A stretch of DNA of 64,000 nt from Pandoraea apista (lineage in GTDB: Bacteria; Pseudomonadota; Gammaproteobacteria; Burkholderiales; Burkholderiaceae), in the NCBI RefSeq assembly GCF_001465595.2, contig NZ_CP013481.2, positions 2,046,001 to 2,110,000 of the forward strand, written 5' to 3'. Shown here piece by piece: positions 17,909 to 33,263 of the stretch (its first letter is position 1; each line of letters opens with the position of its first letter). Below the pieces are notes generated by a model. The model was not told the DNA's origin. It saw only the letters and a list, made by a program, of their open reading frames with translations, and made no database searches. The position numbers and the translations under genes were made by a program.

Positions 17909-18210
17909 ACGTCAGTTCGGTGTTCTCGCTGTGATGCGTCTGGTGCTGTCGTTGCCGGCCGCATGGCGTACGGCATAAGCCATATGCCGCTCGCCGCTTG
18001 CCGCATCTCGCCGGGCTAATCAGGCGAGGTAGATGCGCACCCTCTGGCCGGCCGGTCGCCACCGCCGCCGGGAATGGCTATCATGACGCCATAAGGATCG
18101 TCCGCCCGCCCGGCACTCCCGGAGAGGTCGGCGACGGACCCGCGACCGACCGGGCGCAAATTCCGCGAGCCGGCCTGTCGCGCCAACCGGAACACCCCCA
18201 AGGACTCCCC
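17909..18210. other. Intergenic region before the M20 dipeptidase
   Basis: About 300 nt, GC-rich, with no gene, repeat or terminator that I can support. The AAGGA ribosome site of the next gene lies at its end. Confidence 0.3.
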
Positions 18211-19671
18211 ATGACCGACACAGTCACCCCGACTCAGCCGTCGCTCGATACGGCGGCATTGCGCGAATTCGTCGAGCGCAAATGGAACGACGAAATTCTG
18301 CACGCGCTGACCGATTACATTGCCGTCCCCGCCAAGAGCCCGGGCTTCGATGCCGATTGGGCGCGCAACGGCTACATCGATCGCGTGGTGCGCGACGCTG
18401 CGCAGTGGGCAGAGCGTCAGCCGGTGAAGGGACTGAAGCTCGAAGTGATTCGTCTGGAAGGCCGCACGCCGGTGATCTTCTTTGAAGCCCCGGCCACGCG
18501 TTCCGGCAGCAGCGAGACGATCGTGCTCTACGGTCACCTCGATAAGCAACCCGAGTTCGACGGATGGCGCAAGGACCTCGGCCCGTGGACGCCCAAGTTC
18601 GAGGACGGCAAGCTCTATGGCCGTGGCGGCGCGGACGACGGCTACGCCATCTACGCCAGCGTAACGGCGCTTGCAGCGCTCGATGCGCAAGGTGTGGAGC
18701 GTCCGCGCTGTGTGGGTCTCATCGAGACCTGCGAAGAGTCCGGCAGCTACGATCTTCTGCCGTATGTCGACGCCTTGCGTGAACGTCTGGGCCGTGTCGG
18801 TCTGGTCGTCTGCCTCGATTCCGGGGCGGGCAACTACGACCAGTTGTGGCTGACGACGTCGCTGCGTGGCCTGATCTCCGGCAGCCTCGAAGTGCAGGTG
18901 CTCGACGAGGGCATTCACTCGGGCGGCTACGGCGGCATTGCGCCGTCGAGCTTTCGCATCATGCGCCAGTTGTTCGAGCGTCTTGAAGATGCCGGCACCG
19001 GCAACGTGCTGCCGCAGGGCTTTCATACCCCGATCCCGTTGCAGCGTCTGAAAGAGGCCGAAGCCACCGCCCGTATTCTTGGCGACGACGTCTGGAAAAA
19101 GATGCCGTGGGCTTGCGGACAAGACGGTTTGTCGGTGCTGCCGACCACGACCGATCCGAAGGAGGCGCTGCTCAATTCGACGTGGCGTCCGTCGTTGTCG
19201 GTGACGGGGGCTGCCGGTTTGCCCGCGTTGGCCGATGCCGGGAATGTGTTGCGTCCGCGTACGGCGTTCAAGCTGTCGCTACGGTTGCCGCCGCTCGTTG
19301 ACGCCGCCAAAGCCGTGGCCGAACTCAAGTCGCTGCTCGAACTCGATCCGCCGTACAACGCGAAGGTGACGTTCAAGTCCGACGCCGGCGCGGCTTCCGG
19401 TTGGAACGCCCCCGACGTTGCACCGTGGCTCACGTCGGCGCTCAATACGGCATCGCAACGGCACTACGGAGCGGATGTGGCGTACATCGGGCAGGGCGGC
19501 ACGATCCCGCTGATGAATACGCTGCAAGCCGGATTCCCGACGGCGCAGTTCATGGTGTGCGGCGTGCTTGGCCCGAAGTCGAACGCGCACGGCCCGAACG
19601 AATTCCTGCACGTGCCTTATGCGAAGAAGCTGACCGCTGCGGTCGCCGAGGTGATCGCTTTGGCGCCGTAA
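18211..19671 (+). CDS. M20-family metallopeptidase (dipeptidase)
   Basis: 486 residues from ATG 18211 (AAGGA 8 nt upstream). The M20 zinc peptidase signature is visible: VLYGHLDKQPEF (first His/Asp), KLYGRGGADDGYA (bridging Asp), IETCEESGSYD (catalytic Glu pair), CLDSGAGNYDQL, and a late His in NAHGPNEFLHVPY. Probably a cytosolic dipeptidase of the carnosinase/CNDP type that supplies amino acids. The gene converges on the amidohydrolase gene, with a terminator between. Confidence 0.9.
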   Translation: MTDTVTPTQPSLDTAALREFVERKWNDEILHALTDYIAVPAKSPGFDADWARNGYIDRVVRDAAQWAERQPVKGLKLEVIRLEGRTPVIFFEAPATRSGSSETIVLYGHLDKQPEFDGWRKDLGPWTPKFEDGKLYGRGGADDGYAIYASVTALAALDAQGVERPRCVGLIETCEESGSYDLLPYVDALRERLGRVGLVVCLDSGAGNYDQLWLTTSLRGLISGSLEVQVLDEGIHSGGYGGIAPSSFRIMRQLFERLEDAGTGNVLPQGFHTPIPLQRLKEAEATARILGDDVWKKMPWACGQDGLSVLPTTTDPKEALLNSTWRPSLSVTGAAGLPALADAGNVLRPRTAFKLSLRLPPLVDAAKAVAELKSLLELDPPYNAKVTFKSDAGAASGWNAPDVAPWLTSALNTASQRHYGADVAYIGQGGTIPLMNTLQAGFPTAQFMVCGVLGPKSNAHGPNEFLHVPYAKKLTAAVAEVIALAP

Positions 19672-19782: not shown

Positions 19783-21036
19783 TCAGAGCCGATGCGTGGT
19801 GGCGTCAAGCACTTGTACGCCGCGCATGAAGTCGTCGAGATCCATGCTTTCGTGCGGATTGTGCGAGCCGTTGGCATTGCGCACGAACACCATGCCGCTT
19901 GGAATCCCGGCGTTGGCGAAGATGGCGGCGTCGTGACCGGCGCCACTCGGCACCCGCTCTTGCGGAAGATCGAGCATGCGGCAAGCGTCGACCAGCAGCG
20001 ACGACACCTGCGCATCCATGATCGCGGGGGCCGACGCCAGCCGCCGGTCGAACACGAACTGCACACCGCGATCGCGCTCGATGGCGCGGCACTCGGTACG
20101 CATCAATTCGTAGAACACATCGAGCGTATCGGAACTCTGGCTGCGGACTTCCAGACTGAAATCCACTTTGCCCGGAATGCGCGAGATGGCGTGCTCGGCG
20201 GGATCGGTGCCGACGATGCCGGTGGTCACGACCAGATCGATGCCGCGCTCCAGCAGGGCGCGCCAATGCTCGTCGAGTCGTGTGATGAGGTCCGCCACCG
20301 CGAACATGGCATCGTGACGCAGCCAGCGCGGCACGGCTCCCGAGTGGCCGGCTTCCCCCACGCATGACACGCGGTTATGCCGCACGTTGCCGCGAATACC
20401 GGGCACGATGGCCACGGGCATGTTGCGCGCGATCATCACCGGACCCTGTTCGATGTGGAGTTCCAGCCACGCCTTGGCCCGCGAGACGTCGAACAGCAGA
20501 GCGCCGTCGCGAATCGCGTCGATATCGGCGCCCGCCTCGGCCATGCATGCCGCGAGCGTTCGGCCATGCGTGCGATGGGGCATAGCCAGATCGGCGTCGT
20601 TCAGTTTGCCGAACAGTGCGCTCGAGCCCATGTACGCCTTGCCGAACCATGCGCTTTCCTCGCCGCGCAAGGCGAGTACGCGCACCGGCGTGGTGGTGCG
20701 GCGCTCGCTGCGCCGTTGTTCGACAAGGCACAACAGCCCGGCGACGATACCGGCCAGACCATCGTAATTGCCGCCTTGCGGCACCGAATCGAGATGCGAG
20801 CCAATCCATGTGGCGGGAGCGTCGCCAGTGTCGTCGGGCAGGGTGAAGATCAGGTTGGCGGCGCGGTCGCGTGCGACGGCCAGTCCTTGATGCCCGGCCC
20901 ATTCCGTCAGATACGAGGCGGCGGCATTCTCGCCTTCGCCGTAGCTGTCGCGGGTGATGCCGACACCGTCGTTGCCAAGACGGCGCAGATCGGTGAAGAG
21001 TTGCTCGGCCAGCGGGGCCAGCGCGTTCAGTTCCAT
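19783..21036 (-). CDS. M20-type Zn-dependent N-carbamoyl amino acid amidohydrolase (candidate ureidosuccinase)
   Basis: 417 residues, hydantoinase/carbamoylase (HyuC / allantoate amidohydrolase / beta-ureidopropionase) family. Metal and substrate motifs: GSHLDSVPQGGNYDG, LRGEESAWFGKAYMGS, HIEQGPVM and SGAGHDAAIF. Such enzymes remove the carbamoyl group of ureido acids, releasing CO2, NH3 and an amino acid. It is the last gene of a transporter-pyrK-pyrD operon, so N-carbamoyl-L-aspartate (product of dihydroorotate opening) is the most logical substrate. This is inferred from context; the family has several substrates. Confidence 0.85.
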   Translation of the reverse strand: MELNALAPLAEQLFTDLRRLGNDGVGITRDSYGEGENAAASYLTEWAGHQGLAVARDRAANLIFTLPDDTGDAPATWIGSHLDSVPQGGNYDGLAGIVAGLLCLVEQRRSERRTTTPVRVLALRGEESAWFGKAYMGSSALFGKLNDADLAMPHRTHGRTLAACMAEAGADIDAIRDGALLFDVSRAKAWLELHIEQGPVMIARNMPVAIVPGIRGNVRHNRVSCVGEAGHSGAVPRWLRHDAMFAVADLITRLDEHWRALLERGIDLVVTTGIVGTDPAEHAISRIPGKVDFSLEVRSQSSDTLDVFYELMRTECRAIERDRGVQFVFDRRLASAPAIMDAQVSSLLVDACRMLDLPQERVPSGAGHDAAIFANAGIPSGMVFVRNANGSHNPHESMDLDDFMRGVQVLDATTHRL

Positions 21037-21105
21037 GAGTGTGCTTCTTTTGTGTGCTTCTTTTCGCGTGAGGCTTTGCGAGGGTTACGTAAAACGTGTG
21101 ACGGC

Positions 21106-22056
21106 TCAGCCGGACTGCTGCGCAAAGCGCAGCCAGCGGTCGGTCAACTGGGCGTCGAGCGCGACGGCGCCGGTGAGCGTTGCGATGCGTTCGACGGCTT
21201 GCGCCTCGCAATACGCTGTCAACCCGTCGATGATGTGTCCCATCACGGCCGGATCGCGGAACGACGCGGTACCGACTTGCACCGCCGAGGCTCCCGCGAG
21301 CATGAACTCCACGGCGTCGTCTGCCGTTTCGATACCGCCGCAGCCGATGATCGGGATGCGCACCGCCCGATGGCACTGATGCACGAGCCGGACGGCGAGC
21401 GGCTTGATCGCCGGGCCCGAGAGTCCCCCCATGACGTTGCCCAGTTTGGGCTTGCGCGTGCGCACATCGATGGCCATGCCCAGTACGGTGTTGCCCATGA
21501 CGATGGCGTCGGCACCGGCGTCTTCCGCCGCTTTGGCGATCAACGCGATCTGTCCGGCGTTGGGGGTGAGCTTCACCCACAACGGATGCGAGGTGCGCCG
21601 GCGAATGGCGCTCACGGCCTTGTAAGTGGTCTCGGGCAGCATGGCAAAGGCCATGCCGTCGGCTTCAAGGTTCGGGCAGGAGATGTTCGCTTCGATGGCC
21701 GCGACTTCCGGCAGCGACAGCGTCTCGCAGGCTTCCCCGAAAGACTCCGCCGTGTCGGCCGAGACGGACACCACGACTGGCGTATCGAAACGCGTATAGG
21801 CGGGCAACACGTCCCGCCGGTAGGCGTCGAGCCCCTTGCTCGGAATGCCGATGGAGTTGAGCATGCCGCTGGCGGTCTCGGCCACGCGCGGTGTCGGATT
21901 ACCCGCACGCGTTACTGGCGAGACACTCTTGATGACGAGCGCACCGAGCCGGGTCAGGTCCAGCGCTTCGGCGTATTCGACCGCGAAGCAGCCAGAGGCC
22001 GGCATGACCGGATTGCGCAGCGTCAGCGATCCGATGCGTACGGAAAGATCAGCCAA
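21106..22056 (-). CDS. Dihydroorotate dehydrogenase, class 1B catalytic (PyrD-type) subunit
   Basis: 316 residues from TTG 22056, which overlaps the pyrK-like stop by 8 nt and has GGGGAGGTG just before. FMN-binding TIM barrel. Class 1 features: ASGMLNSIGIPSKG, the NISCPN motif with catalytic Cys, WVKLTPN, and GCGGIETADDAVEF (FMN phosphate site). Classical proteobacteria make pyrimidines with a quinone-dependent class 2 enzyme, so a 1B enzyme next to an amidohydrolase points to catabolism of orotate or a similar ring. No C-terminal ferredoxin domain, unlike dihydropyrimidine dehydrogenase. Confidence 0.88.
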   Translation of the reverse strand: MADLSVRIGSLTLRNPVMPASGCFAVEYAEALDLTRLGALVIKSVSPVTRAGNPTPRVAETASGMLNSIGIPSKGLDAYRRDVLPAYTRFDTPVVVSVSADTAESFGEACETLSLPEVAAIEANISCPNLEADGMAFAMLPETTYKAVSAIRRRTSHPLWVKLTPNAGQIALIAKAAEDAGADAIVMGNTVLGMAIDVRTRKPKLGNVMGGLSGPAIKPLAVRLVHQCHRAVRIPIIGCGGIETADDAVEFMLAGASAVQVGTASFRDPAVMGHIIDGLTAYCEAQAVERIATLTGAVALDAQLTDRWLRFAQQSG

Positions 22057-22990
22057 AGTCCACCTCCCCGACGACGTCGCGAATCGGAAACACCGGGCCC
22101 TCCCGGCACACGCGCAGGAATTGCTTGTCGCCATCGCGATCGAACAGGCGCACGCACGACAGGCAAACCCCCATGCCGCACGCCATGCGTTGTTCCATCG
22201 CGACCTCGGCCGTGATGTGCGGATGCGCATGCAGCACACGCTGGAGCAGCATCAATAAACGATGCGAGCCGCAGGTGTAGACAGCGTCGTGCGGCGCGGC
22301 GTCGAGCAGAGCACGTATGCGCGGCTCCAGGGCGTCTACGGCCGACGAGCCGTCGGTGTCGAACACGCAATGCACGTCGGCCAGTGCGCGGGCTTCGGGC
22401 GAGCGCAGAAATTCGTCGTGCATCAGGTCGGCTTCGCTGCGGGCCGACATGACGACCGTCAACTTCAGCCCGGCCGCCGCCGCCCGTTGCACTAGCGGCG
22501 CCATCGTCGCCAGCCCGACCCCGCGCGCGACCAGCATCACGCGTTGCCATTGCGAAGACTGGGTATTAAGCGTGAACGTATTGCCAAGCGGGCCGACGAT
22601 ATCGAGCGTTGCCCCTTCCAACAGGGTGGCAAGGGCGCGCGTGCCAACGCCAGTGACGTTGTAGAGAAACTCGATGGTGTCCGGCTCGGGGCCCGTGCCG
22701 TACACGCTCATCGGGCGCAGCAGGAAGGGGGCGTCGCTCAGCGTGACCGGACACTTCAGTTGGTAGAACTGGCCGGGCTGCGTGGTGAGGGCGATGGGCG
22801 CATCGGCTTGCAGACGCAAATAGCGGTAACGTGCGTTGACGGCGCGGTGCGTGAGCACGCGGCAGCGATGCGCGGCGACCGTAGGCGCTCGGCAAGACAC
22901 ATCGTGCGTGCCGTGTGCGTCGTGCGTGTCCGAGGGCGCATACCCCAATGGGTGGGCGACGTCGGTACGCGACAGGGTGGCAACTGACAT
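22049..22990 (-). CDS. Dihydroorotate dehydrogenase electron-transfer (PyrK-type) subunit
   Basis: 313 residues. Ferredoxin-reductase-like FAD and NAD domains: TTQPGQFYQLKCP and FLLRPMSVYGTG (FAD), MLVARGVGLATMAPLV (NAD side). A C-terminal [2Fe-2S] site follows: ACGMGVCLSC with a fourth Cys in RVCREG. PyrK passes electrons between NAD(H) and the FMN of PyrDB. The N-terminus is about 40 residues longer than usual and His/Asp-rich (DTHDAHGTHD). CCGGAG precedes ATG 22990. Confidence 0.88.
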   Translation of the reverse strand: MSVATLSRTDVAHPLGYAPSDTHDAHGTHDVSCRAPTVAAHRCRVLTHRAVNARYRYLRLQADAPIALTTQPGQFYQLKCPVTLSDAPFLLRPMSVYGTGPEPDTIEFLYNVTGVGTRALATLLEGATLDIVGPLGNTFTLNTQSSQWQRVMLVARGVGLATMAPLVQRAAAAGLKLTVVMSARSEADLMHDEFLRSPEARALADVHCVFDTDGSSAVDALEPRIRALLDAAPHDAVYTCGSHRLLMLLQRVLHAHPHITAEVAMEQRMACGMGVCLSCVRLFDRDGDKQFLRVCREGPVFPIRDVVGEVDFG

Positions 22991-23053
22991 GAGGGCTCCG
23001 GAGGGTGAGGGCTGGCGTGGCGCGCGGCGGGGACGTCGCGCATCTCGTTCTCG

Positions 23054-24316
23054 TTATTCGAGTTCAACGCCTTTGAGTTCGGGGATCAGGAATCGCGTCG
23101 CGATCATGTCGAGCACATACAGGCTCGCGAGCAGCGCAATGGCAATCTGGAACGAGTAGCGGGCGGCAAGCGCGCCCACGACGACCGGCCCGAGCCCGCC
23201 GATGGCGCGCCCGATGTTCCACAGCACGTTCTGTGCGGTGGCGCGTGCCGCAGTGGGATAAGCCTCGGACATGAGCGTGCCGTAGCCGCCGACCATGCCG
23301 TTCACGAACATGCCCATCAGCGCGCCGGCGAACAGCATGACCGTCGGATCGGTGAGTTGGGCGTAGACGAGGACCATGACCACGGCGCCCGCCTGATACA
23401 GCAGGAACGTGGGCCGGCGTCCGATACGGTCGGCCAGTTGCCCGAAGGCCCACACGCCGATCATCATGCCGATCACGGTGGCCGCGGTCCAAAGACCGGA
23501 CTTCGTGAGCGAGAAGCCGAGCTTCTGTGAGAGGAACGTCGGCAGCCAGATCATGATCCCGTAGTAGCCGAAGTTCTGAACCGAACAGAGGATCACGATG
23601 CCCAGACTCACGCGCGTGGTGCGGGCATCCTTCACGAGCAGACGGAAGGCGTTGCTGCCCGCGCCCGATTTCGCGGCTTTGCCGCTGCGCCGGACAAAGA
23701 CTTCAGGCTCGTGCAGCTTGTTACGCAGCACCCACGCGACGAGTGCCGGCAGCACCCCCACGAGGAACATGCCCCGCCAGCCGATATGCATCAGCAGCAG
23801 CGGCGTGAGCAGCGCGGCGGCGAGCACACCCGTCTGCCAGCCGAGCGCGACGTACGACGAGACACGTGCGCGCTTCGCCGCAGGCCACGCTTCGGCGGCC
23901 AGCGCCATGCCGATGCCGAACTCGCCGCCCAGTCCGATGCCCGCAATCGTGCGATACACCAGCAAGTCCCAGAAACCCTGGGCAAACGCGCACAGGCCCG
24001 TGAAGACCGCGAATAGCAGAATCGTCCACGTGAGCATGCGCACGCGCCCGTAGCGATCCGAGAGGGCACCGAACAGAATGCCGCCCGCGACGGCACCGAT
24101 CAATGTCCACGTCACGAGCGCGCCGGCTTGTCCGGGCGAGAGGTGCAGGCCGGCCGTAATCGCCGGCAGCATGAAGCCGAGAATCAGCAGATCGAAGCCG
24201 TCCATCGCGTAGCCGATGGCGGAGCCCGCGAGCGCTTTCCAAGCGTAAGGAGTGACGATGTCGTCAGACGTGGCGTCCGCGCGTTGCGCACTCGGTGTGT
24301 TCAGGTTGGCTTCCAT
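23054..24316 (-). CDS. MFS transporter, aromatic-acid/proton symporter type
   Basis: 420 residues with 12 predicted membrane helices. The early DGFDLLILGFMLPAI and the loop GALSDRYGRVRML are typical of the AAHS (PcaK/BenK-like) branch that imports aromatic and other ring carboxylates. The middle loop is acidic/basic and cytosolic. It heads the operon with pyrK, pyrD and the amidohydrolase. A perfect 9-bp-arm palindrome lies about 72 nt upstream. Orotate, an aromatic carboxylate, would fit as substrate; this is inference. Confidence 0.88.
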   Translation of the reverse strand: MEANLNTPSAQRADATSDDIVTPYAWKALAGSAIGYAMDGFDLLILGFMLPAITAGLHLSPGQAGALVTWTLIGAVAGGILFGALSDRYGRVRMLTWTILLFAVFTGLCAFAQGFWDLLVYRTIAGIGLGGEFGIGMALAAEAWPAAKRARVSSYVALGWQTGVLAAALLTPLLLMHIGWRGMFLVGVLPALVAWVLRNKLHEPEVFVRRSGKAAKSGAGSNAFRLLVKDARTTRVSLGIVILCSVQNFGYYGIMIWLPTFLSQKLGFSLTKSGLWTAATVIGMMIGVWAFGQLADRIGRRPTFLLYQAGAVVMVLVYAQLTDPTVMLFAGALMGMFVNGMVGGYGTLMSEAYPTAARATAQNVLWNIGRAIGGLGPVVVGALAARYSFQIAIALLASLYVLDMIATRFLIPELKGVELE

Positions 24317-24387
24317 GATCGATTCCTGTGAGGCGGCGAAGCGGCGTGGCGATTGACCTGGCGCCGCATTCGTCCAATCTCGTCAAA

Positions 24388-24407
24388 TTGTCTAAATTTT
24401 TAGACAA
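24388..24407. promoter_or_regulatory. Operator 1 of the orotate-type regulon
   Basis: Perfect palindrome TTGTCTAAATTTTTAGACAA (9-bp arms, 2-nt centre) in the leader of the MFS operon. Shares GTCTA-N6-TAGAC with two other sites (24804-24819, 26159-26174) within 1.8 kb. The likely binder is the XRE protein encoded at 26320/26359. Confidence 0.8.
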
Positions 24408-24465
24408 TCAAGTGAAAAAAAGCCGCCGGGGATGGGCATCGAGACTCGCTCGTCGTCACGCCACG

Positions 24466-24789
24466 TCACGCATAGATCTCGGCGGTCAGTTGCGCGGCAA
24501 AGCCGTTCAACGAGGCAAGAAAGCTCGCATCGGAGGTTGCTGCGGCGTCGCGCAACATCGTGGCATAGGCTTTGGTGCGAGCGAGGAATGCCTGAAACGT
24601 CTCGCCGTTCGCGGCAATGCCCGATTGACGCTCCGCGAAAGTCTGCGCGGCCTGCGCCAGCAACAGCAACGCAGCAGACTCGCGTGTAGCGGTCTTCGAC
24701 GCATGGAGACAACGCGCGGCAAAGTCTTCAATGTCGGACAGACCGACGGTGTCGCGCTGTAACCAGACGCATGCAAGTTGCAGATCCAT
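24466..24789 (-). CDS. Small helical protein inside the regulon
   Basis: 107 residues from ATG 24789 (GGAGAG upstream); in-frame ATGs at 24792 and 24801 are also possible, but the latter sits against the operator. All-helical, Ala/Leu-rich, with two Cys (LACVWLQRDTVG and ARCLHASK). No family recognised. It has its own copy of the operator immediately upstream, so it is regulated with the transporter operon and porin. It may be a regulator-like or chaperone-like accessory; unknown. Confidence 0.7.
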   Translation of the reverse strand: MDLQLACVWLQRDTVGLSDIEDFAARCLHASKTATRESAALLLLAQAAQTFAERQSGIAANGETFQAFLARTKAYATMLRDAAATSDASFLASLNGFAAQLTAEIYA

Positions 24790-24803
24790 CATGCTCTCCA
24801 TCT

Positions 24804-24819
24804 GTCTAAATATTTAGAC
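24804..24819. promoter_or_regulatory. Operator 2 of the orotate-type regulon
   Basis: Perfect 16-bp palindrome GTCTAAATATTTAGAC immediately upstream of the small helical protein gene. The arm sequence is identical to operator 1. AT content suggests it overlaps the -10 region, which would give repression. Confidence 0.8.
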
Positions 24820-24960
24820 TAAACGAACCCGACAAGGCAGGCAAGACGAAAATAATCGGGTCAAACCCTGATTTCGTGGCGGTGCGACGGCACGCTTCAA
24901 GGGCGGCAATCGTGTGCCGTCGCACACCTCGGGAAGGCTGGCCGAGTGGCCTGCCTTCGC

Positions 24961-26013
24961 TCAGAACTTCATGCGCAGGCCGGCGCCGTAGGTCTGTCCG
25001 GTCGACATGTCACTCATGTGGTCATACTTGTACGCGGCGTAAATGTCCGTGCGTTTGGACAGCGGGTAGTCGTAGCCAAGGGCCCACGTGGTACGGCGCT
25101 GGTTGTCGCCCGAACCGTTCGAGCCGGTGTAGGCGACCGAAGCGAGCACGCTGCCGCGGCCGAGCGGAACCGAGGCGCCCAACTGCCCGGTATTGGCGTG
25201 GAAGTTGCCGCTCGCGGCCTGACTCGCGATGAGCATGTATTGGGCGAAGACCTTCACCACGGCGAAGTCGTACGAGAGGCCGAGTTGTGCCGTGTTCTGG
25301 TTGGTCAGCCCGGTAACGCCCGGCAACTGCGAGCCGAAGTCGCCCGGTGTCGCACTGAAATTCACGTATTGATAGTTCACGGCCGCAGCGAACGGGCCGT
25401 TGGCATAGGTGATCGCAGCAGCCCACTTCTTAGCGCTATGGTCGGTCGGGCTGTTGCCGGTCGCATAGAGCAGTGTGCCCGCCATGCCGGCATACGTTGG
25501 CGACGTATATGCCACGGCGTTGTTCCATGCCGAATCGCCCACCACGCCCTGCGTCCCCAGACCCTTGTAGGTGTGGAAGATCATTGGCGAGAAGGTGTAC
25601 GAGTTGTTAAACGGGTTGAACTGGATCGTGGCGAGATAAAGCGGGGTGGTGATGCGGCCGAGGCGCAAGGTGCCAAGCGCGTTTGACAGACCCACGTAAG
25701 CATTGCGCGAGAAGAAGCTATCGCCGGCGAAGCGGCCGTACGTTCCGTTATTCGGCTGGAAGTAGCTCTCCAGCACGAACAGCGCGCTGTTGCCGCCGCC
25801 AAGGTCTTCGGTGCCGGCCAGCCCCCAATACGACGTGGTCATGCCGCCACCTTGCTGCACCACAGCGGCGTTGCCGCCGGGGTTCTTCACCGAGCCGACA
25901 TAGGCATCTGCCAGGCCATAGAAGCTCACGCTCGATTGCGCGTGAGCGGTGGTTGCGAGCGTCGCGGCGCTCAGTGCGGCGGCGCCAGCCACCTTGTGCC
26001 AGGTTTTCATCAT
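24961..26013 (-). CDS. Gram-negative (OmpC-like, Burkholderiales type) porin
   Basis: 350 residues. A signal peptide (MMKTWHKVAGAAALSAATLA..., cleavage after AHA) precedes QSSVSFYGLADAYVG, the start of the first strand that is typical of the 16-strand porins of beta-proteobacteria. It ends in aromatic MKF, the outer-membrane assembly signal (YGAGLRMKF). It has a good AGAGGG before ATG 26013 and shares the operator with the transporter operon, so it probably admits the same substrate. Confidence 0.9.
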   Translation of the reverse strand: MMKTWHKVAGAAALSAATLATTAHAQSSVSFYGLADAYVGSVKNPGGNAAVVQQGGGMTTSYWGLAGTEDLGGGNSALFVLESYFQPNNGTYGRFAGDSFFSRNAYVGLSNALGTLRLGRITTPLYLATIQFNPFNNSYTFSPMIFHTYKGLGTQGVVGDSAWNNAVAYTSPTYAGMAGTLLYATGNSPTDHSAKKWAAAITYANGPFAAAVNYQYVNFSATPGDFGSQLPGVTGLTNQNTAQLGLSYDFAVVKVFAQYMLIASQAASGNFHANTGQLGASVPLGRGSVLASVAYTGSNGSGDNQRRTTWALGYDYPLSKRTDIYAAYKYDHMSDMSTGQTYGAGLRMKF

Positions 26014-26358
26014 TCCCTCTTTGTTTGTATAAATTTCTGGACGGCGCGCAGGCTATCACTGCCGGCACGTGGAGTCACCCCCCCAAAACACCACAGGCTT
26101 GCCCTCGGGGCAGGGCATTCCCACGCCATGGGGTATCCGTGATCGGGATCGTGCAGATGTCTAAAAAAATAGACAATCGAAAAAATAATCGGTGGATCGA
26201 TGTGGGGTGTTTGCGACAGTGCCGGAAGGGAAACTGCGTGTCGGCAACGACAAAGGCCTGACATCGAGACGAGCAACCGACCGGTATAATTCCGGCACTG
26301 CAATGCGGGTGCGGCGCGTTTGGCTGACCCGGGCATTGGCAATCCGACAGGGGGCGAT
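26014..26358. other. Divergent regulatory region between porin and XRE regulator
   Basis: About 345 nt containing operator 3 and a consensus -10 TATAAT at 26284-26289 directed to the regulator. A GC-rich inverted repeat around 26098-26118 (TTGCCCTCGGGGCAGGGC) is also present, of unclear role. No small gene is supported. Confidence 0.5.
26159..26174. promoter_or_regulatory. Operator 3 of the orotate-type regulon
   Basis: GTCTAAAAAAATAGAC: same GTCTA-N6-TAGAC frame as the other two sites, with an A-run in the centre. It lies 146 nt before the porin and about 185 nt before the regulator gene, so it may control both. Confidence 0.7.
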
Positions 26359-27273
26359 TTGAATCGAGCTGCGACGACATCCCGGGCGCCGAGAGGTGCG
26401 CGTTTCAATTTCCGAGCCATTGGCGAGCGTTTGCGCGCCTACCGGCTGGCGGCGGAGTTACGTAGCGAGGATGTGGCGGAGCAACTCGATATCTCGCGCG
26501 CGGCCATCTACAAGCTTGAGCGCGGCGAAATCGTCAAGATCGACACGCTGGAGCGGCTCGCCGCGCTGCTCGGCGTGTCGCTGGCGAATCTGCTGGGGGT
26601 GGAGGTCGAATACCATGACTCGGCGGTGAGTTACTTCGAACGGATGCGTCAGTTGGAAAGCCGCTCGGAGCGTATCGTCGCGCATTTCGACCCGATCTCG
26701 TTTCTGCTCACCTCGGAAGACTATGACGTTTGGCTGCGTCACATGCTTGACGAGAGCATTCCGCCCTCACTCGCCGACCGTCACTGGACGAATACGATTG
26801 ATCGCGTGCTGGGAATTCTGCAGGAGCGCAAGTCGAGCTTCTCGCGTCAGCGGCTGGCCGTGACCAGCCTGATCGGGCTGCGTCAGATCGAGCAGTTTCT
26901 GCATCACGGGCTTGTGGGCCGGCTGGGGCTGCCGCCCGGGGTGCAGCTTGAGCGCAAGATGGCGGCACGTCGCGAGGTTGCGCGCATTGTCGAGTTTCTC
27001 GAAGCCGACACGACAGGCGTGCAGATCGGTATCGTGAGCGACAACATGCCCAATGAGACGTTCCAGATCTTCGAAGCGCAGGGCGAAGCCTATGTCGCCG
27101 TGTCGCCGTTCCGTCTGGGCGAGCTGCCAAACTTGCGTACCGGCATCGCCACGATCACCACGTCGCCCGACGGGGTGGGCATGTATCGCGCGATGATCGA
27201 TCGCCTATGGGCCGATTCGGCCAAGGGCAAGGAAGGGGCTGCACTCCTGGGCCAACTGCTCGCCCGCTTCTGA
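26359..27273 (+). CDS. XRE-type transcriptional regulator, proposed regulator of the orotate-type regulon
   Basis: 304 residues from TTG 26359 (GGGGG 5 nt upstream); an in-frame TTG at 26320 would add 13. The N-terminal HTH (about 15-70) is a clear Xre/Cro fold: FRAIGERLRAYRLAAELRSE, then LDISRAAIYKLERGEIVKID. The C-terminal 220 residues form an unassigned sensing domain with HFDPISFLLTS and VSDNMPNETFQIFE stretches and no cupin. It is divergent from the porin, with a shared operator in between. Confidence 0.8.
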   Translation: MNRAATTSRAPRGARFNFRAIGERLRAYRLAAELRSEDVAEQLDISRAAIYKLERGEIVKIDTLERLAALLGVSLANLLGVEVEYHDSAVSYFERMRQLESRSERIVAHFDPISFLLTSEDYDVWLRHMLDESIPPSLADRHWTNTIDRVLGILQERKSSFSRQRLAVTSLIGLRQIEQFLHHGLVGRLGLPPGVQLERKMAARREVARIVEFLEADTTGVQIGIVSDNMPNETFQIFEAQGEAYVAVSPFRLGELPNLRTGIATITTSPDGVGMYRAMIDRLWADSAKGKEGAALLGQLLARF

Positions 27274-29340: not shown

Positions 29341-30063
29341 ATGTCACAGGACAAGGAACCGCGCCGGCGCTTTCTGCGCCAGGTGCTGGCGATCGTGCCT
29401 GCCACGACTCTCGCCACCGGTGCGACGCTTACGCAGTCCGCCTGTAGCAGCGACAAGTCCGCTGCCCCCGCTGCTTCGACCACTCCCTACGAGCCCAAGT
29501 ACTTCACTGCCGACGAATGGCGGTTCGTGAACGCTGCCGTCGACCGTCTGATTCCCGCCGACGATCTCGGCCCGGGCGCGCTGCAAGCCGACGTGCCTCA
29601 GTTCATCGACCGTCAGATGGAAACGCCCTTCGGACACGGCAAGCTCTGGTACATGCAGGGGCCGTTCCATCCCGATCAGCCGCCCGAGATGGGCTACCAG
29701 TTGAGCCTCGTGCCGCGTGACATCTATCGTCACGGCATCGCGGCGTGCGATGCGTACTGCAAGAAGCAGTACAACAAGGCATTCGCCGACCTCGATCACG
29801 CCACGCAGGAAACCGTGCTCAGCGATCTCGAACATGCGAAGGTCGAGTTCGATAGCGTGCCTGCGCGCACCTTCTTCTCCTATCTGCTGGCCAACACGAA
29901 GGAGGGGTTCCTCTCGGACCCGATCCACGGCGGCAACAAGGACATGGTCGGCTGGAAACTGGTCGGATTCCCCGGCGCTCGCGCCGACTTCATGGATTGG
30001 GTGGATCAGCCCAACGTCAAGTACCCGTATGGGCCCGTGTCGATTTCCGGAAAGCGGGGCTAA
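29341..30063 (+). CDS. Gluconate 2-dehydrogenase subunit 3-type small subunit (Tat exported)
   Basis: 240 residues. The N-terminus RRRFLRQVLAIVPATTLATG is a Tat-type signal, so the protein and its partner flavoprotein can be exported folded. The body (EWRFVNAAVDRLIPADDLGPG, then the DLEHAKVEF helix region) is the subunit-3 family needed for maturation and export of GMC dehydrogenases. GGAG precedes ATG 29341. It is first of a three-gene operon with a 12-nt gap to the flavoprotein. Confidence 0.9.
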   Translation: MSQDKEPRRRFLRQVLAIVPATTLATGATLTQSACSSDKSAAPAASTTPYEPKYFTADEWRFVNAAVDRLIPADDLGPGALQADVPQFIDRQMETPFGHGKLWYMQGPFHPDQPPEMGYQLSLVPRDIYRHGIAACDAYCKKQYNKAFADLDHATQETVLSDLEHAKVEFDSVPARTFFSYLLANTKEGFLSDPIHGGNKDMVGWKLVGFPGARADFMDWVDQPNVKYPYGPVSISGKRG

Positions 30064-30075
30064 GGGGGCAAAATC

Positions 30076-31851
30076 ATGGCAATCAAGAAAGATAAAGTCG
30101 ACGCCGTCATCGTGGGCTTCGGCTGGACCGGAGCTATCCTCGGCCAGGAACTCACCGACGCCGGACTCAACGTTGTCGCACTCGAGCGAGGCGCCATGCG
30201 CGACACGCCGACCGACGCGCAGTATCCCAAGGTCATCGACGAACTCGAGTACTCGGTGCGCGGCAAGCTCTTTCAGGAGCTGGCGCGCGAGACCGTCACG
30301 ATTCGTCACACCCCTGACGACCTCGCCGTGCCTTACCGTCAGAACGGCTCGTTCCTGCTCGGCAATGGCGTGGGCGGTGCCGGGTTTCACTGGAACGGCA
30401 TGCACTACCGTATCCTCCCGGAAGAACTGAAGCTGCGCAGTCATTACGAAGAACGCTACGGCAAGAAGTTCATTCCCGAGGGCATGACGATTCAGGACTT
30501 CGGCGTAAGCTACGAAGAACTGGAGCCGCACTTCGATTTCGCCGAGAAAGTGTTCGGCACATCGGGCAAGGCGGGGAACCTGAACGGCAAGATCGTGCCG
30601 GGCGGCAACCCGCGCGAGGGGGCACGTTCGAGCGAATTCCCCACCCCGCCGTTGCAGAACACCTACGGCGCGACGCTTTTCGAGAAGGCCGCTCGCGACG
30701 TCGGTTTCAATCCGTATCCGGCACCTGCCGCGAACACCTCGCAGCCTTATACGAATCCGTATGGCGTGCGTCTCGGGCCGTGCAACTTCTGCGGCTTTTG
30801 CGAGAACTACGGCTGCTACATGTATTCGAAGGCCTCGCCGCAGACGACCATCCTGCCGGTATTGCTCAAGAAGACCAATTTCGAGCTGCGCACGAACGCC
30901 TATGTCGTCAAGGTCAATCTCGACAGCGACGGCAAGAAGGCGACCGGTGTGACGTACATCGACGCACAAGGCCGCGAAGTCGAGCAGCCTGCCGACCTCG
31001 TCATCATGGCCGCCTACCAGATGCACAACGTGCGCCTGCTGCTGCTCTCGGGGATCGGCAAACCGTACGACCCGAAGACGGGCGAGGGTGTCGTCGGCAA
31101 GAACTACGCGTACCAGATGAACGGCGCGGTGAACGTGCTGCTGCCCAAGGGCACGCAATTGAACCCGTTCATCGGAACGGGCGCCGGCGGCGTGTCGATG
31201 GACGACCTGAACGGCGACCAGTTCGATCACGGCCCGCTGGGCTTCATCGGCGGCGCGAGTATTCGTCACGTGCGCTATGGCGGGCGTCCGATCAAGATGA
31301 CGCCGACCGTGCCCGGCACACCGTCGTGGGGCAGCAAGTGGAAGGCCGGCATTGCCGACGCATATCAGCGCTACATGACCATCGGGATCTCCGGCTCCGT
31401 GATGTCGTACCGCGACGCCTGCCTTGATCTCGATCCGACCTACAAGGATGCCTACGGCGTGCCGCTGCTGCGCATGACGTTCGACTGGCACGACAACGAA
31501 TACGCCATGCTGGGCTACATGGGCGACCGCATGGAAGAGGTTGGCCGCGCGATGAACCCCGAGAAGGTGTTCCGGGCGATTCGCAAGAAGGGCACCCATT
31601 ACGACACGCGGATCTATCAGAGCACGCATACGACCGGGGGCGCCATCATGGGCACCAATCCGTCGAACAGCGTGGTCAACCGGTATTTGCAGAGCTGGGA
31701 CGTGTCGAACGTGTTCGTGATGGGCGCGTCGGCGTTCCCGCAGAACATGGGTTACAACCCCACGGGCGTGGTGGCGGCGCTGGCGTACTGGTCCGCGAAG
31801 GCGATTCGCGAACAGTACCTCAAGAACGCCGGCCCGCTGGTGCAAGCCTGA
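30076..31851 (+). CDS. GMC-family FAD dehydrogenase, large subunit
   Basis: 591 residues. A Rossmann FAD motif is at the N-terminus (IVGFGWTGAILGQELTDAG). A GMC substrate domain follows, and the C-terminal catalytic part (HTTGGAIMGTNPSNS with His, then GASAFPQNMGYNPTG with His/Asn partner) is complete. A cluster CNFCGFCENYGC (about residue 235) resembles the iron-sulfur site of FAD glucose/gluconate dehydrogenases. Substrate is a polyol, sugar or sugar acid, not resolved. It has no own signal and is probably carried by the Tat subunit. Confidence 0.9.
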   Translation: MAIKKDKVDAVIVGFGWTGAILGQELTDAGLNVVALERGAMRDTPTDAQYPKVIDELEYSVRGKLFQELARETVTIRHTPDDLAVPYRQNGSFLLGNGVGGAGFHWNGMHYRILPEELKLRSHYEERYGKKFIPEGMTIQDFGVSYEELEPHFDFAEKVFGTSGKAGNLNGKIVPGGNPREGARSSEFPTPPLQNTYGATLFEKAARDVGFNPYPAPAANTSQPYTNPYGVRLGPCNFCGFCENYGCYMYSKASPQTTILPVLLKKTNFELRTNAYVVKVNLDSDGKKATGVTYIDAQGREVEQPADLVIMAAYQMHNVRLLLLSGIGKPYDPKTGEGVVGKNYAYQMNGAVNVLLPKGTQLNPFIGTGAGGVSMDDLNGDQFDHGPLGFIGGASIRHVRYGGRPIKMTPTVPGTPSWGSKWKAGIADAYQRYMTIGISGSVMSYRDACLDLDPTYKDAYGVPLLRMTFDWHDNEYAMLGYMGDRMEEVGRAMNPEKVFRAIRKKGTHYDTRIYQSTHTTGGAIMGTNPSNSVVNRYLQSWDVSNVFVMGASAFPQNMGYNPTGVVAALAYWSAKAIREQYLKNAGPLVQA

Positions 31852-31862
31852 GGAGCGCAACC

Positions 31863-33263
31863 ATGATCCGCAAAACGATGATGAAACGCTCCGCCGGTGT
31901 TCTCGCGGCCGGTGCCCTGGCGCTGGTGGCTGCCGCCGTATGGGCGCAGACTGCCACGGCGCCTTCCGGCGCGGCAGTCTCGCCGGTGCCCACGCGTACG
32001 GTGCCCGCCGTCGCGGTGGAAGGGGGCGCGCAGCCTCCTGCCGCCAACGATCCGCAAACGCAACTCGTCAAGCAGGGCGAATACCTCGCCCGCGCCGCCG
32101 ATTGTGCGGCGTGCCATACGGCGCCCAAGGGCAAGCCGTTCGCTGGCGGTCTGCCGATTGCGTCGCCCATCGGCACGATCTACTCGACGAACATCACGCC
32201 GGACAAGGACACCGGCATTGGCAACTACAGCCTTGAAGACTTCGACAAGGCGGTGCGCCACGGCATCGCCAAGAATGGCTCGACGCTGTACCCCGCCATG
32301 CCGTATACCTCGTACGCGAAGGTGCGTCCGGCCGATGTGAAGGCGTTGTATGCCTACTTCATGAGCGGCGTGCAGCCGGTTGCGCAGGCGAACAAGGCGA
32401 CGGACATTCCGTGGCCGATGTCGATGCGCTGGCCGTTGTCGATCTGGCGCAAGATGTTCGCGCCGGCGGTCGCGGCCGACGCGGCGTCGACCGATAACGA
32501 TCCGATCTCGCGCGGTCGCTATCTCGTCGAAGGTCTGGGCCATTGCAGTGCATGCCATACGCCGCGCGGCATCGCTTTGCAGGAAAAGGCGCTCACGGAC
32601 GACAGCACGGCGTTCCTCTCGGGCGGCGTGGTCGACCACTTCCTTGCGAAGAACTTGCGAGGCGATGTCACTGACGGTCTGGGCAACTGGAGCGAGGGCG
32701 ATATCACGGCGTTCCTGAAGGGCGGACGCAACGATCATTCCGCAGCCTTCGGCGGCATGTCGGACGTTGTGCAGCACAGCACGCAGCACATGAACGACGA
32801 CGATCTCACGGCCATCGCCAAGTACCTGAAGACGCTTAAGCCGGTTGATCCGAACGCCAAGGCGCTTGCCTACGACGACACCGTGGCCAGGGCGTTGCGT
32901 GCGGGTTCCGACAAGAGCAACGGTGCGCTCACGTTCCTCGATAACTGTGCCGCGTGTCACCGCAGCACGGGCAAGGGCTACACGCAAACATTCCCGACGC
33001 TCGCGCTTAGCTCGACGGTGAACTCGGCAGACCCGACCTCGCTCATTCATATCGTGTTGCGCGGCGCGGAAATGCCGTGGACGAAGTCGGCGCCGACGCA
33101 TTATGCAATGCCCGGTTTCGATGACCGTCTGACCGATCAGGATGTGGCCGACGTGTTGACGTTCGTGCGTTCGAGCTGGGGTAACAAGGCGCCGGCGGTG
33201 ACGGCTGCGCAGGTGTCGAAGGTGCGCAAGGACGTTGGCGCCGCACCTCAGCCGCAGCGTTGA
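31863..33263 (+). CDS. Triheme cytochrome c subunit of the FAD dehydrogenase
   Basis: 466 residues. A Sec signal peptide (hydrophobic run AGVLAAGALALVAAAVWA) and three CxxCH haem sites: CAACH near residue 81, CSACH near 228, CAACH near 362. Axial Met candidates follow each domain. This subunit passes electrons from the flavoprotein to the respiratory quinone pool, as in gluconate, sorbitol and alcohol dehydrogenase complexes. GGAG site and 11-nt gap from the GMC gene. Confidence 0.93.
   Translation: MIRKTMMKRSAGVLAAGALALVAAAVWAQTATAPSGAAVSPVPTRTVPAVAVEGGAQPPAANDPQTQLVKQGEYLARAADCAACHTAPKGKPFAGGLPIASPIGTIYSTNITPDKDTGIGNYSLEDFDKAVRHGIAKNGSTLYPAMPYTSYAKVRPADVKALYAYFMSGVQPVAQANKATDIPWPMSMRWPLSIWRKMFAPAVAADAASTDNDPISRGRYLVEGLGHCSACHTPRGIALQEKALTDDSTAFLSGGVVDHFLAKNLRGDVTDGLGNWSEGDITAFLKGGRNDHSAAFGGMSDVVQHSTQHMNDDDLTAIAKYLKTLKPVDPNAKALAYDDTVARALRAGSDKSNGALTFLDNCAACHRSTGKGYTQTFPTLALSSTVNSADPTSLIHIVLRGAEMPWTKSAPTHYAMPGFDDRLTDQDVADVLTFVRSSWGNKAPAVTAAQVSKVRKDVGAAPQPQR

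Follow-up and report, generated by a model that had tools for sequence, protein, structure and literature searches.

What would a class-1B dihydroorotate dehydrogenase do in a bacterium when its genes lie beside a carbamoyl amidohydrolase, a membrane carrier, a porin and a regulator? This question is raised by a gene cluster of Pandoraea apista, located in the window analysed here, a stretch of 64,000 nucleotides (C1:2046001-2110000) of the 5.57-Mb genome. The data make it very likely that the cluster is a regulon dedicated to the uptake and catabolism of orotate, a reading that builds on gene content, conservation, operators and orotate-site residues, and from these we infer substrate, direction, repression and inducer. 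On the minus strand, the transcription order is porin, 111-amino-acid protein, MFS carrier, PyrK-like protein, PyrD and M20 carbamoylase, and an XRE regulator gene faces them. An earlier note on this DNA had described the same set (a PyrDK pair, M20, MFS, porin, small protein and XRE); an open-frame check of the window found each named frame open at the positions given below, and the families agree in Pfam and NCBIfam.

The predicted PyrD (21106..22056, minus strand) scores 363 bits against the class-1B model NF005574 (cut-off 269), has 5ue9, 5ksw and 1ep1 as its best solved relatives, and is the catalytic subunit of what we regard as a putative orotate reductase. Its catalytic Cys127 (NISCPN) is kept in 73/73 M20-linked PyrD rows, a set that excludes the window PyrD and counts some genomes twice. 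Ten active-site positions were checked, the orotate contacts presumably being those of the Lactococcus enzymes from which they were taken. At nine positions, all 73 M20-linked rows are identical to the biosynthetic enzymes (64/64); the tenth, position 71, shows a mild I/L change, with I in 72 M20-linked rows and L in one, and L in 63/64 of the others. Sister groups of PyrD are altered at this site: a third branch carries N67F and T190A in 9/9 rows, and rows linked to XDH-type genes carry N129T in 5/5. These residues indicate that the orotate site has been retained in the M20-linked group and partly lost in relatives that serve other pathways. The frame of the PyrK-like electron-transfer subunit (22049..22990, minus strand; flavin adenine dinucleotide (FAD) and 2Fe-2S) overlaps that of pyrD by 8 bases. 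Its product matches PF10418 (DHODB Fe-S domain) with 51.6 bits and the solved chain 1ep1_B, and both the RPMS motif (FAD) and the cluster cysteines 271, 276, 279 and 295 are invariant in 12 rows.

The last gene of the series (19783..21036, minus strand) encodes an M20-family N-carbamoyl amidohydrolase and candidate ureidosuccinase. It belongs to the hydantoinase/carbamoylase family TIGR01879 (265 bits, cut-off 204), and residues H81, D92, E126, E127, H194 and H392, which we take to be the metal and catalytic positions, are kept in 27/27 relatives. R215 is likewise present in 27/27, and R237 in 24/27, with K in two of the remaining rows and L in one. At these two positions, A and M stand in the solved L-carbamoylase 3n5f, and we propose that R215 and R237 might hold the extra carboxylate of carbamoylaspartate. 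To our knowledge, no sequence has been assigned to ureidosuccinase (Enzyme Commission (EC) number 3.5.1.7). Its name is absent from the open-access literature searched, and literature matches to 'EC 3.5.1.7' were discarded as apparently longer EC numbers caught at the word start, judged by titles and abstracts.

Conservation across genomes supports the view that these genes belong together. A single genome scan gave 80 loci, 16 of them near (PyrD 73-97% identical) and 64 distant. MFS-PyrK-PyrD-M20 is found in 16/16 near loci, and M20 or MFS genes had no match in 64/64 distant class-1B pyrD loci, many of them short. Among 398 sampled Burkholderiaceae genomes, 59 hold a PyrK of the family, comprising 47 core genomes (E <1e-130, window genome included) and 12 with divergent copies only. 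Each of the 46 other core genomes contributed one core locus (G647 has a second, which was left out), and all 46 keep MFS-PyrK-PyrD-M20; these loci overlap the 16 near ones, and the two samples are thus not independent. Because the four genes recur in 16/16 and 46/46 loci and the three operators described below are unique in the genome, the cluster represents more than chance. Within the genus, PyrK is present in 25/32 Pandoraea genomes, and 24/24 other Pandoraea clusters include the porin. An order-wide sample yielded a wider-family PyrK in 18/399 genomes, a count that includes the window genome; loci from eight of the remaining 17 were opened, and M20 is a neighbour in L106, L111 and L113 and absent from L107-L110 and L112. 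A TRAP carrier substitutes for the MFS carrier in L106, L113 and L120, with PyrK-PyrD-M20 retained.

The genes that relatives add to the cluster give the most direct view of its likely chemistry. The near loci include AspA in 8/16, PyrE in 9/16 and PyrC in 6/16, and the 22 non-Pandoraea core loci hold dihydroorotase (PyrC) in 15, aspartate ammonia-lyase (AspA) in 13 and orotate phosphoribosyltransferase (PyrE) in nine. A cluster PyrC scores 452 bits against TIGR00856 (cut-off 293) and the AspA of L010 703 bits against TIGR00839 (cut-off 681), with a second AspA slightly under at 673; one PyrE reaches 253 bits (cut-off 245) and another, at 225, stays under. An orotate reductase, a dihydroorotase and a gene of the carbamoylaspartate-hydrolase type stand together in 15/22 non-Pandoraea core clusters and on the Klebsiella plasmids opened, and in 0/24 Pandoraea clusters. 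PyrDK, PyrC, carbamoylase and AspA thereby spell out a route from orotate through dihydroorotate, carbamoylaspartate and aspartate to fumarate, and their presence in one cluster, along with PyrE, strengthens the orotate pathway that the earlier note had drawn from the window. In Cupriavidus basilensis (L017, 9603-9755), the PyrC match is a 51-residue piece, a sign of clusters losing pyrC.

The catabolic idea also depended on the same genome having another enzyme for pyrimidine synthesis. A class-2 PyrD is indeed encoded at C1:2451431-2452300 (TIGR01036, 442 bits, cut-off 200), and biosynthesis is therefore independent of the cluster PyrDK. Elsewhere in the genome there are FumC and single copies of PyrE and PyrC, the latter 58% identical to the catabolic PyrC; this pyrC is the stand-alone dihydroorotase that had been predicted to lie outside the window, and the Pandoraea cluster probably borrows this housekeeping enzyme. 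A search for AspA in the window genome was fruitless, the best of three matches being FumC (fumC_II 806 bits against 665; aspA 470 against 681), and aspartate is probably transaminated there.

The cluster also carries its own regulatory signature. A near-palindrome, TGTCTAAA-N2-TTTAGACA, lies upstream of the MFS gene (24389), the small gene (24803) and the porin/regulator pair (26158). Specifically, the motif scan places operator TGTCTAAATTTTTAGACA (24389..24406) upstream of the MFS-pyrKD-M20 genes, operator TGTCTAAATATTTAGACT (24803..24820) immediately upstream of the 111-amino-acid gene and operator TGTCTAAAAAAATAGACA (26158..26175) between the porin and regulator genes. A whole-genome scan for TGTCTAAAWWWWTAGACA with one mismatch allowed returned just these three sites, and the reversed-pattern control returned 0, which gives substance to the earlier claim of a regulon: the cluster genes share an operator private to them in this genome. 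The same operator core is present in five other Pandoraea clusters first fetched (2 or 3 copies each) and once in Caballeronia, and the exact core is absent from the other ten near loci. Other genera have a looser site upstream of the cluster, scored against the core GTCTAAAWWWWTAGAC; in 14/16 loci the best upstream score is shared by at most 2 positions per stored locus (strands apart), the exceptions being L012 (5 positions) and L119 (7 positions). Because the upstream regions scored across genera are A+T-rich, a composition that favours such a motif, this cross-genus evidence is supportive rather than decisive.

The facing gene (26359..27273, plus strand) encodes the XRE-type regulator, with an HTH_31/HTH_3 domain and, by fold match, a phospholipase-D-like C-terminal domain as its putative effector domain; its frame is open from 26320, and a reading of the frame makes TTG at 26359 the likely start. 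The genome contains no second copy, and the regulator is cluster-linked in 15/16 near relatives (all except L017) and 43/46 core loci. The C-terminal domain (predicted local distance difference test (pLDDT) score 75) resembles phospholipase-D-family folds with a best E of 3.7e-5, at a template modelling score of 0.50-0.58 by the length of the target (single-domain targets) and ~0.3 by that of the query. No HxK motif was seen by eye in this domain, and we read it as a putative non-catalytic sensor.

These elements can be assembled into a model. Orotate would enter through the general porin (24961..26013, minus strand; PF13609, 179 bits), a candidate outer-membrane entry route with an operator upstream, and through the AAHS-type MFS carrier (23054..24316, minus strand; PF07690), a candidate orotate:H+ symporter that scores best against TIGR00895, with 351 bits below that model's cut-off of 419 in the NCBIfam scan. 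With a reduced pyridine nucleotide as donor, PyrK would subsequently supply electrons to PyrD for the reduction of orotate to L-dihydroorotate. The housekeeping PyrC, encoded outside the window and in the cluster of many relatives, would open the ring to N-carbamoyl-L-aspartate, and the M20 enzyme, acting as ureidosuccinase, would split this into aspartate, CO2 and NH3. Aspartate could then pass into central metabolism, via aspartate ammonia-lyase in the clusters that have one. The XRE protein would repress from the three near-identical operators until orotate or an intermediate releases it.

Not all PyrK-PyrD pairs of this kind keep such company. The RGVGLAT loop of PyrK is present in 87/87 branch rows (73/73 M20-linked, 5/5 XDH-linked and 9/9 third-branch) and in 0/57 other PyrK rows, 55 of which have the usual loop; because the XDH-linked and third-branch rows have it too, the loop marks the whole branch and not orotate use alone. 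L107-L110 and L112 represent a PyrK-PyrD branch without M20, alongside XDH-type molybdenum hydroxylase genes, whose large subunit is recognized by Pfam in L107, L108, L110 and L112 and whose small subunit in L109. Further genes at these loci include an XRE relative of 45% identity (L107, L110, L112), PyrC (L107, L109, L110), UbiD-type decarboxylases by Pfam (L109, L110), a TctC receptor (L107) and an amidase (L109), and the loci possibly encode another heterocycle-degrading pathway. The third PyrK-PyrD branch (L169-L177) has Rieske ring-hydroxylating oxygenase genes (Pfam) near all three loci opened (L169, L174, L177), and the second PyrK copy of one Pandoraea genome (G428) falls within it.

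Several observations weigh against an orotate regulon. The PyrK-like protein fails the curated full-length PyrK models (best 126 bits, cut-off 314), and its nucleotide loop is altered, with RGVGLAT replacing GGxGxx[P/A/S]. The RGVGLAT PyrK family is not limited to orotate, because same-loop sisters adjoin molybdenum hydroxylases or Rieske oxygenases. In a PyrD tree of 95 rows (31 M20- and XDH-linked and 64 others, the third branch not included), a 100/100 branch parts the 31 rows from the 64, and within it the XDH clade (100/100) joins four plasmid M20-linked rows with weak support (86/84). As a result of this nesting, the M20-linked rows do not form a separate clade, which slightly lowers confidence in orotate and slightly raises it in a different ring. 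The substrate specificity of the M20 enzyme is not certain from its sequence. Furthermore, pyrC, aspA and pyrE are found in 0/24 Pandoraea clusters, so the Pandoraea pathway leans on a single housekeeping PyrC outside the cluster.

Could the cluster, then, degrade another ring, such as a substituted pyrimidine, a hydantoin or a cyclic ureide, with PyrD and M20 shifted in specificity? The sister PyrKD branches, with changed site residues and other neighbours (XDH-type hydroxylase, UbiD, Rieske oxygenase), would suit this idea, as would the nesting of one of them in the M20-linked set and the breadth of the M20 superfamily. We nevertheless consider it improbable, given that nine of the ten PyrD site positions are kept throughout the M20-linked rows and that the clusters of relatives include AspA as well as PyrC and PyrE, which are specific for dihydroorotate and orotate; in addition, the plasmid clusters opened carry neither a hydantoinase nor a dihydropyrimidinase by annotation, no model-based search having been made. 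The earlier note had proposed 'orotate or cyclic ureide', and its first half has gained from the kept site and from PyrC, PyrE and AspA in relatives, while hydantoins and cyclic ureides found no support.

Two further explanations concern single components. PyrK-PyrD might be a second NAD-linked enzyme for biosynthesis or salvage, for instance at low oxygen, with the carrier importing orotate for PyrE. Class-1B enzymes are mostly biosynthetic, and PyrE in 9/22 clusters suggests that some imported orotate may feed uridine monophosphate synthesis. Yet an enzyme of the type that destroys carbamoylaspartate, present in 46/46 clusters, would counter biosynthesis, AspA would degrade the product, and carAB, pyrB and pyrF are missing among the proteins scanned (nine window proteins with Pfam, eight with NCBIfam). 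Together with the class-2 pyrD, the in-cluster enzyme of this type led us to reject a biosynthetic role, and we rate this explanation as very unlikely. Alternatively, the M20 protein might be an allantoate amidohydrolase or amino-acid carbamoylase that merely lies beside pyrKD, and its nearest NCBIfam models are in fact allantoate amidohydrolase (397 bits, just short of the 399 cut-off) and Zn-dependent hydrolase. This we find scarcely credible, since the gene accompanies pyrKD in 46/46 core clusters and on plasmids of six genera, is unmatched in all 64 loci stored for other class-1B pyrD genes, and clearly fails the AllC equivalog TIGR03176 (183 bits against 598). Orotate catabolism thus remains the preferred reading of the cluster.

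The small protein (24466..24801, minus strand) adds a further conserved component. Its 111 residues are modelled as five helices (pLDDT 85); scans of the protein and its relatives gave no Pfam or NCBIfam match over cut-off, a fold search no structural match (best E 1.3) and a sequence-profile search of solved structures none (best E 0.27). Relatives occur in 15/16 near clusters and 43/46 core clusters, and also on plasmids of Klebsiella, Variovorax, Pseudomonas and Nitratireductor. Membership was tested with two independent hidden Markov models, excluding an unrelated Roseomonas protein (L115); the first model had a best decoy of 0.19 and hit an antisense frame in L006 at 0.0096, and the best decoy of the second was 1.4. 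The two halves of the family show no cross-match above reversed decoys, save weak second-model matches of L009 (0.027) and L004 (0.16). L120 and L121 bridge them, with E-values of 4.8e-4 and 2.1e-4 in one model and 4.9e-8 and 2.9e-6 in the other, and profile-profile comparison (hhalign) of the Pandoraea and non-Pandoraea sets gives a probability of 95 and E 2.8e-8. As such, the Pandoraea protein is likely, although not certain, to be homologous to that of Klebsiella and Variovorax. On the Agrobacterium plasmid pAt1, the small protein forms the C-terminal part of a 552-residue M20 protein (E 2.9e-6 and 2.1e-4 in the two models), and on a second Agrobacterium plasmid the same stretch is annotated inside the hydrolase. 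This fusion links the small protein to ureidosuccinase, and it is the reason to consider a partner role.

The module is also found on mobile elements, a feature that, like the conservation of the small protein and the changed loop of PyrK, was beyond the view of the earlier note. Plasmid records with the M20 gene number 72, of which 53 come from Klebsiella, and pyrKD lies next to that gene in plasmids from Klebsiella, Pseudomonas, Roseomonas, Variovorax, Nitratireductor and Agrobacterium. The four Klebsiella records that were opened share one arrangement: MFS (opposite), PyrK, PyrD, M20, PyrC, XRE and small protein, and after these lacY-lacZ; lacI is there too where the stretch extends that far. 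At least 49 records, all Klebsiella and including the query, match at least 80% of the 13-kb orotate and lac stretch, a few with insertions. At least one of these lac and orotate plasmids also carries iron genes: on the mastitis plasmid NZ_CP092403, fec genes follow the orotate and lac genes. A search for the Klebsiella cluster in E. coli genomes gave no match at megablast sensitivity. A Pseudomonas putida plasmid, p716811-VIM (L119, 9230-14122), has a longer dihydroorotase, a small protein, a malic-enzyme-like gene and a chemotaxis receptor.

According to a passage of a review, orotic acid makes up 3.4% of the non-protein nitrogen of cow milk and is absent from human milk (PMC12399412). Lactose and orotate genes side by side on Klebsiella plasmids might hence reflect adaptation to milk. 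Among the matches listed, the labels of the 49 Klebsiella records are milk or mastitis in nine cases and human in 27; most labels are not dairy, and such sampling does not prove a link to milk. The main text of a 2025 study of lac+ fec+ plasmids from mastitis contains none of the terms orot-, dihydro- and pyrimidine (PMC12724306). We therefore advance only tentatively the combined proposal that the 111-amino-acid protein is a partner of ureidosuccinase, as an activating or channelling subunit, and that the module is a mobile milk adaptation of Klebsiella, drawing carbon from lac and nitrogen and carbon from orotate.

Around the cluster, the window holds further genes. An M20 dipeptidase-like gene (18208-19671, plus strand) is convergent with the cluster and lies beside it in 24/24 Pandoraea and 0/22 other core loci; it was dropped as a cluster member, being on the opposite strand, with no operator found there, and absent next to the non-Pandoraea clusters. 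Past the regulator, 29341-33263 encodes a gluconate/sorbitol-dehydrogenase-like set, named by eye (small subunit, GMC-type flavoprotein and cytochrome c). A promoter and terminator consensus scan gave matches no commoner than chance.

Taken together, these findings turn the orotate pathway of the 1950s into a testable gene set and provide a candidate gene for ureidosuccinase. They also indicate that a PyrDK branch whose annotation says pyrimidine synthesis probably has a catabolic role; RGVGLAT marks this branch including its sisters, and the orotate group is distinguished within it by an intact orotate site. In addition, they offer a new reading for plasmids of dairy and other Klebsiella, in which orotate genes stand beside lac. 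The open-access literature searched contains no orotate-catabolism gene cluster; subscription papers and databases lay outside that search, and priority is not established. Within this scope, the chemistry of orotate degradation is known, and the gene set, regulon and small protein are undescribed.

How, then, does the cluster compare with known systems? Reductive degradation of orotate by Clostridium (Zymobacterium) oroticum is the classical pathway of the 1950s. Like that system, the pathway proposed here from genes would run a class-1B enzyme towards dihydroorotate, followed by dihydroorotase and hydrolysis of carbamoylaspartate. Compared at the level of biochemistry, the present system differs in belonging to Burkholderiales with a separate class-2 pyrD and in uniting an MFS or TRAP carrier, M20, XRE and the small protein in one cluster. 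The C. oroticum dihydroorotate dehydrogenase is listed as class 1B in a passage of one paper (PMC10395836). The proposed route also resembles reductive uracil degradation by dihydropyrimidine dehydrogenase, dihydropyrimidinase and beta-ureidopropionase in its succession of ring reduction, hydrolytic opening and decarbamoylation, and the M20 beta-alanine synthase (1r3n) of the uracil-type route is a distant relative of the cluster M20. It differs in that the reductase is PyrDK and not PreTA (PreA model 132 bits, cut-off 335), the ring-opener is of PyrC type and the proposed product is aspartate, not beta-alanine. Similarly, ErtE (N-carbamyl-L-glutamate amidohydrolase) and AllC share the M20 family and reaction type of the candidate ureidosuccinase, which scores far under the equivalog cut-offs of both (265 against 520 for ErtE, and AllC as above) and has the conserved arginines 215 and 237. 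Finally, the biosynthetic Lactococcus-type class-1B enzyme (1ep1-1ep3) has the same subunits, catalytic cysteine, Fe-S cysteines and orotate site as the cluster PyrDK, which in turn is set apart by the 100/100 separation of its wider branch from 64 other class-1B rows, the RGVGLAT loop in PyrK and its catabolic neighbours.

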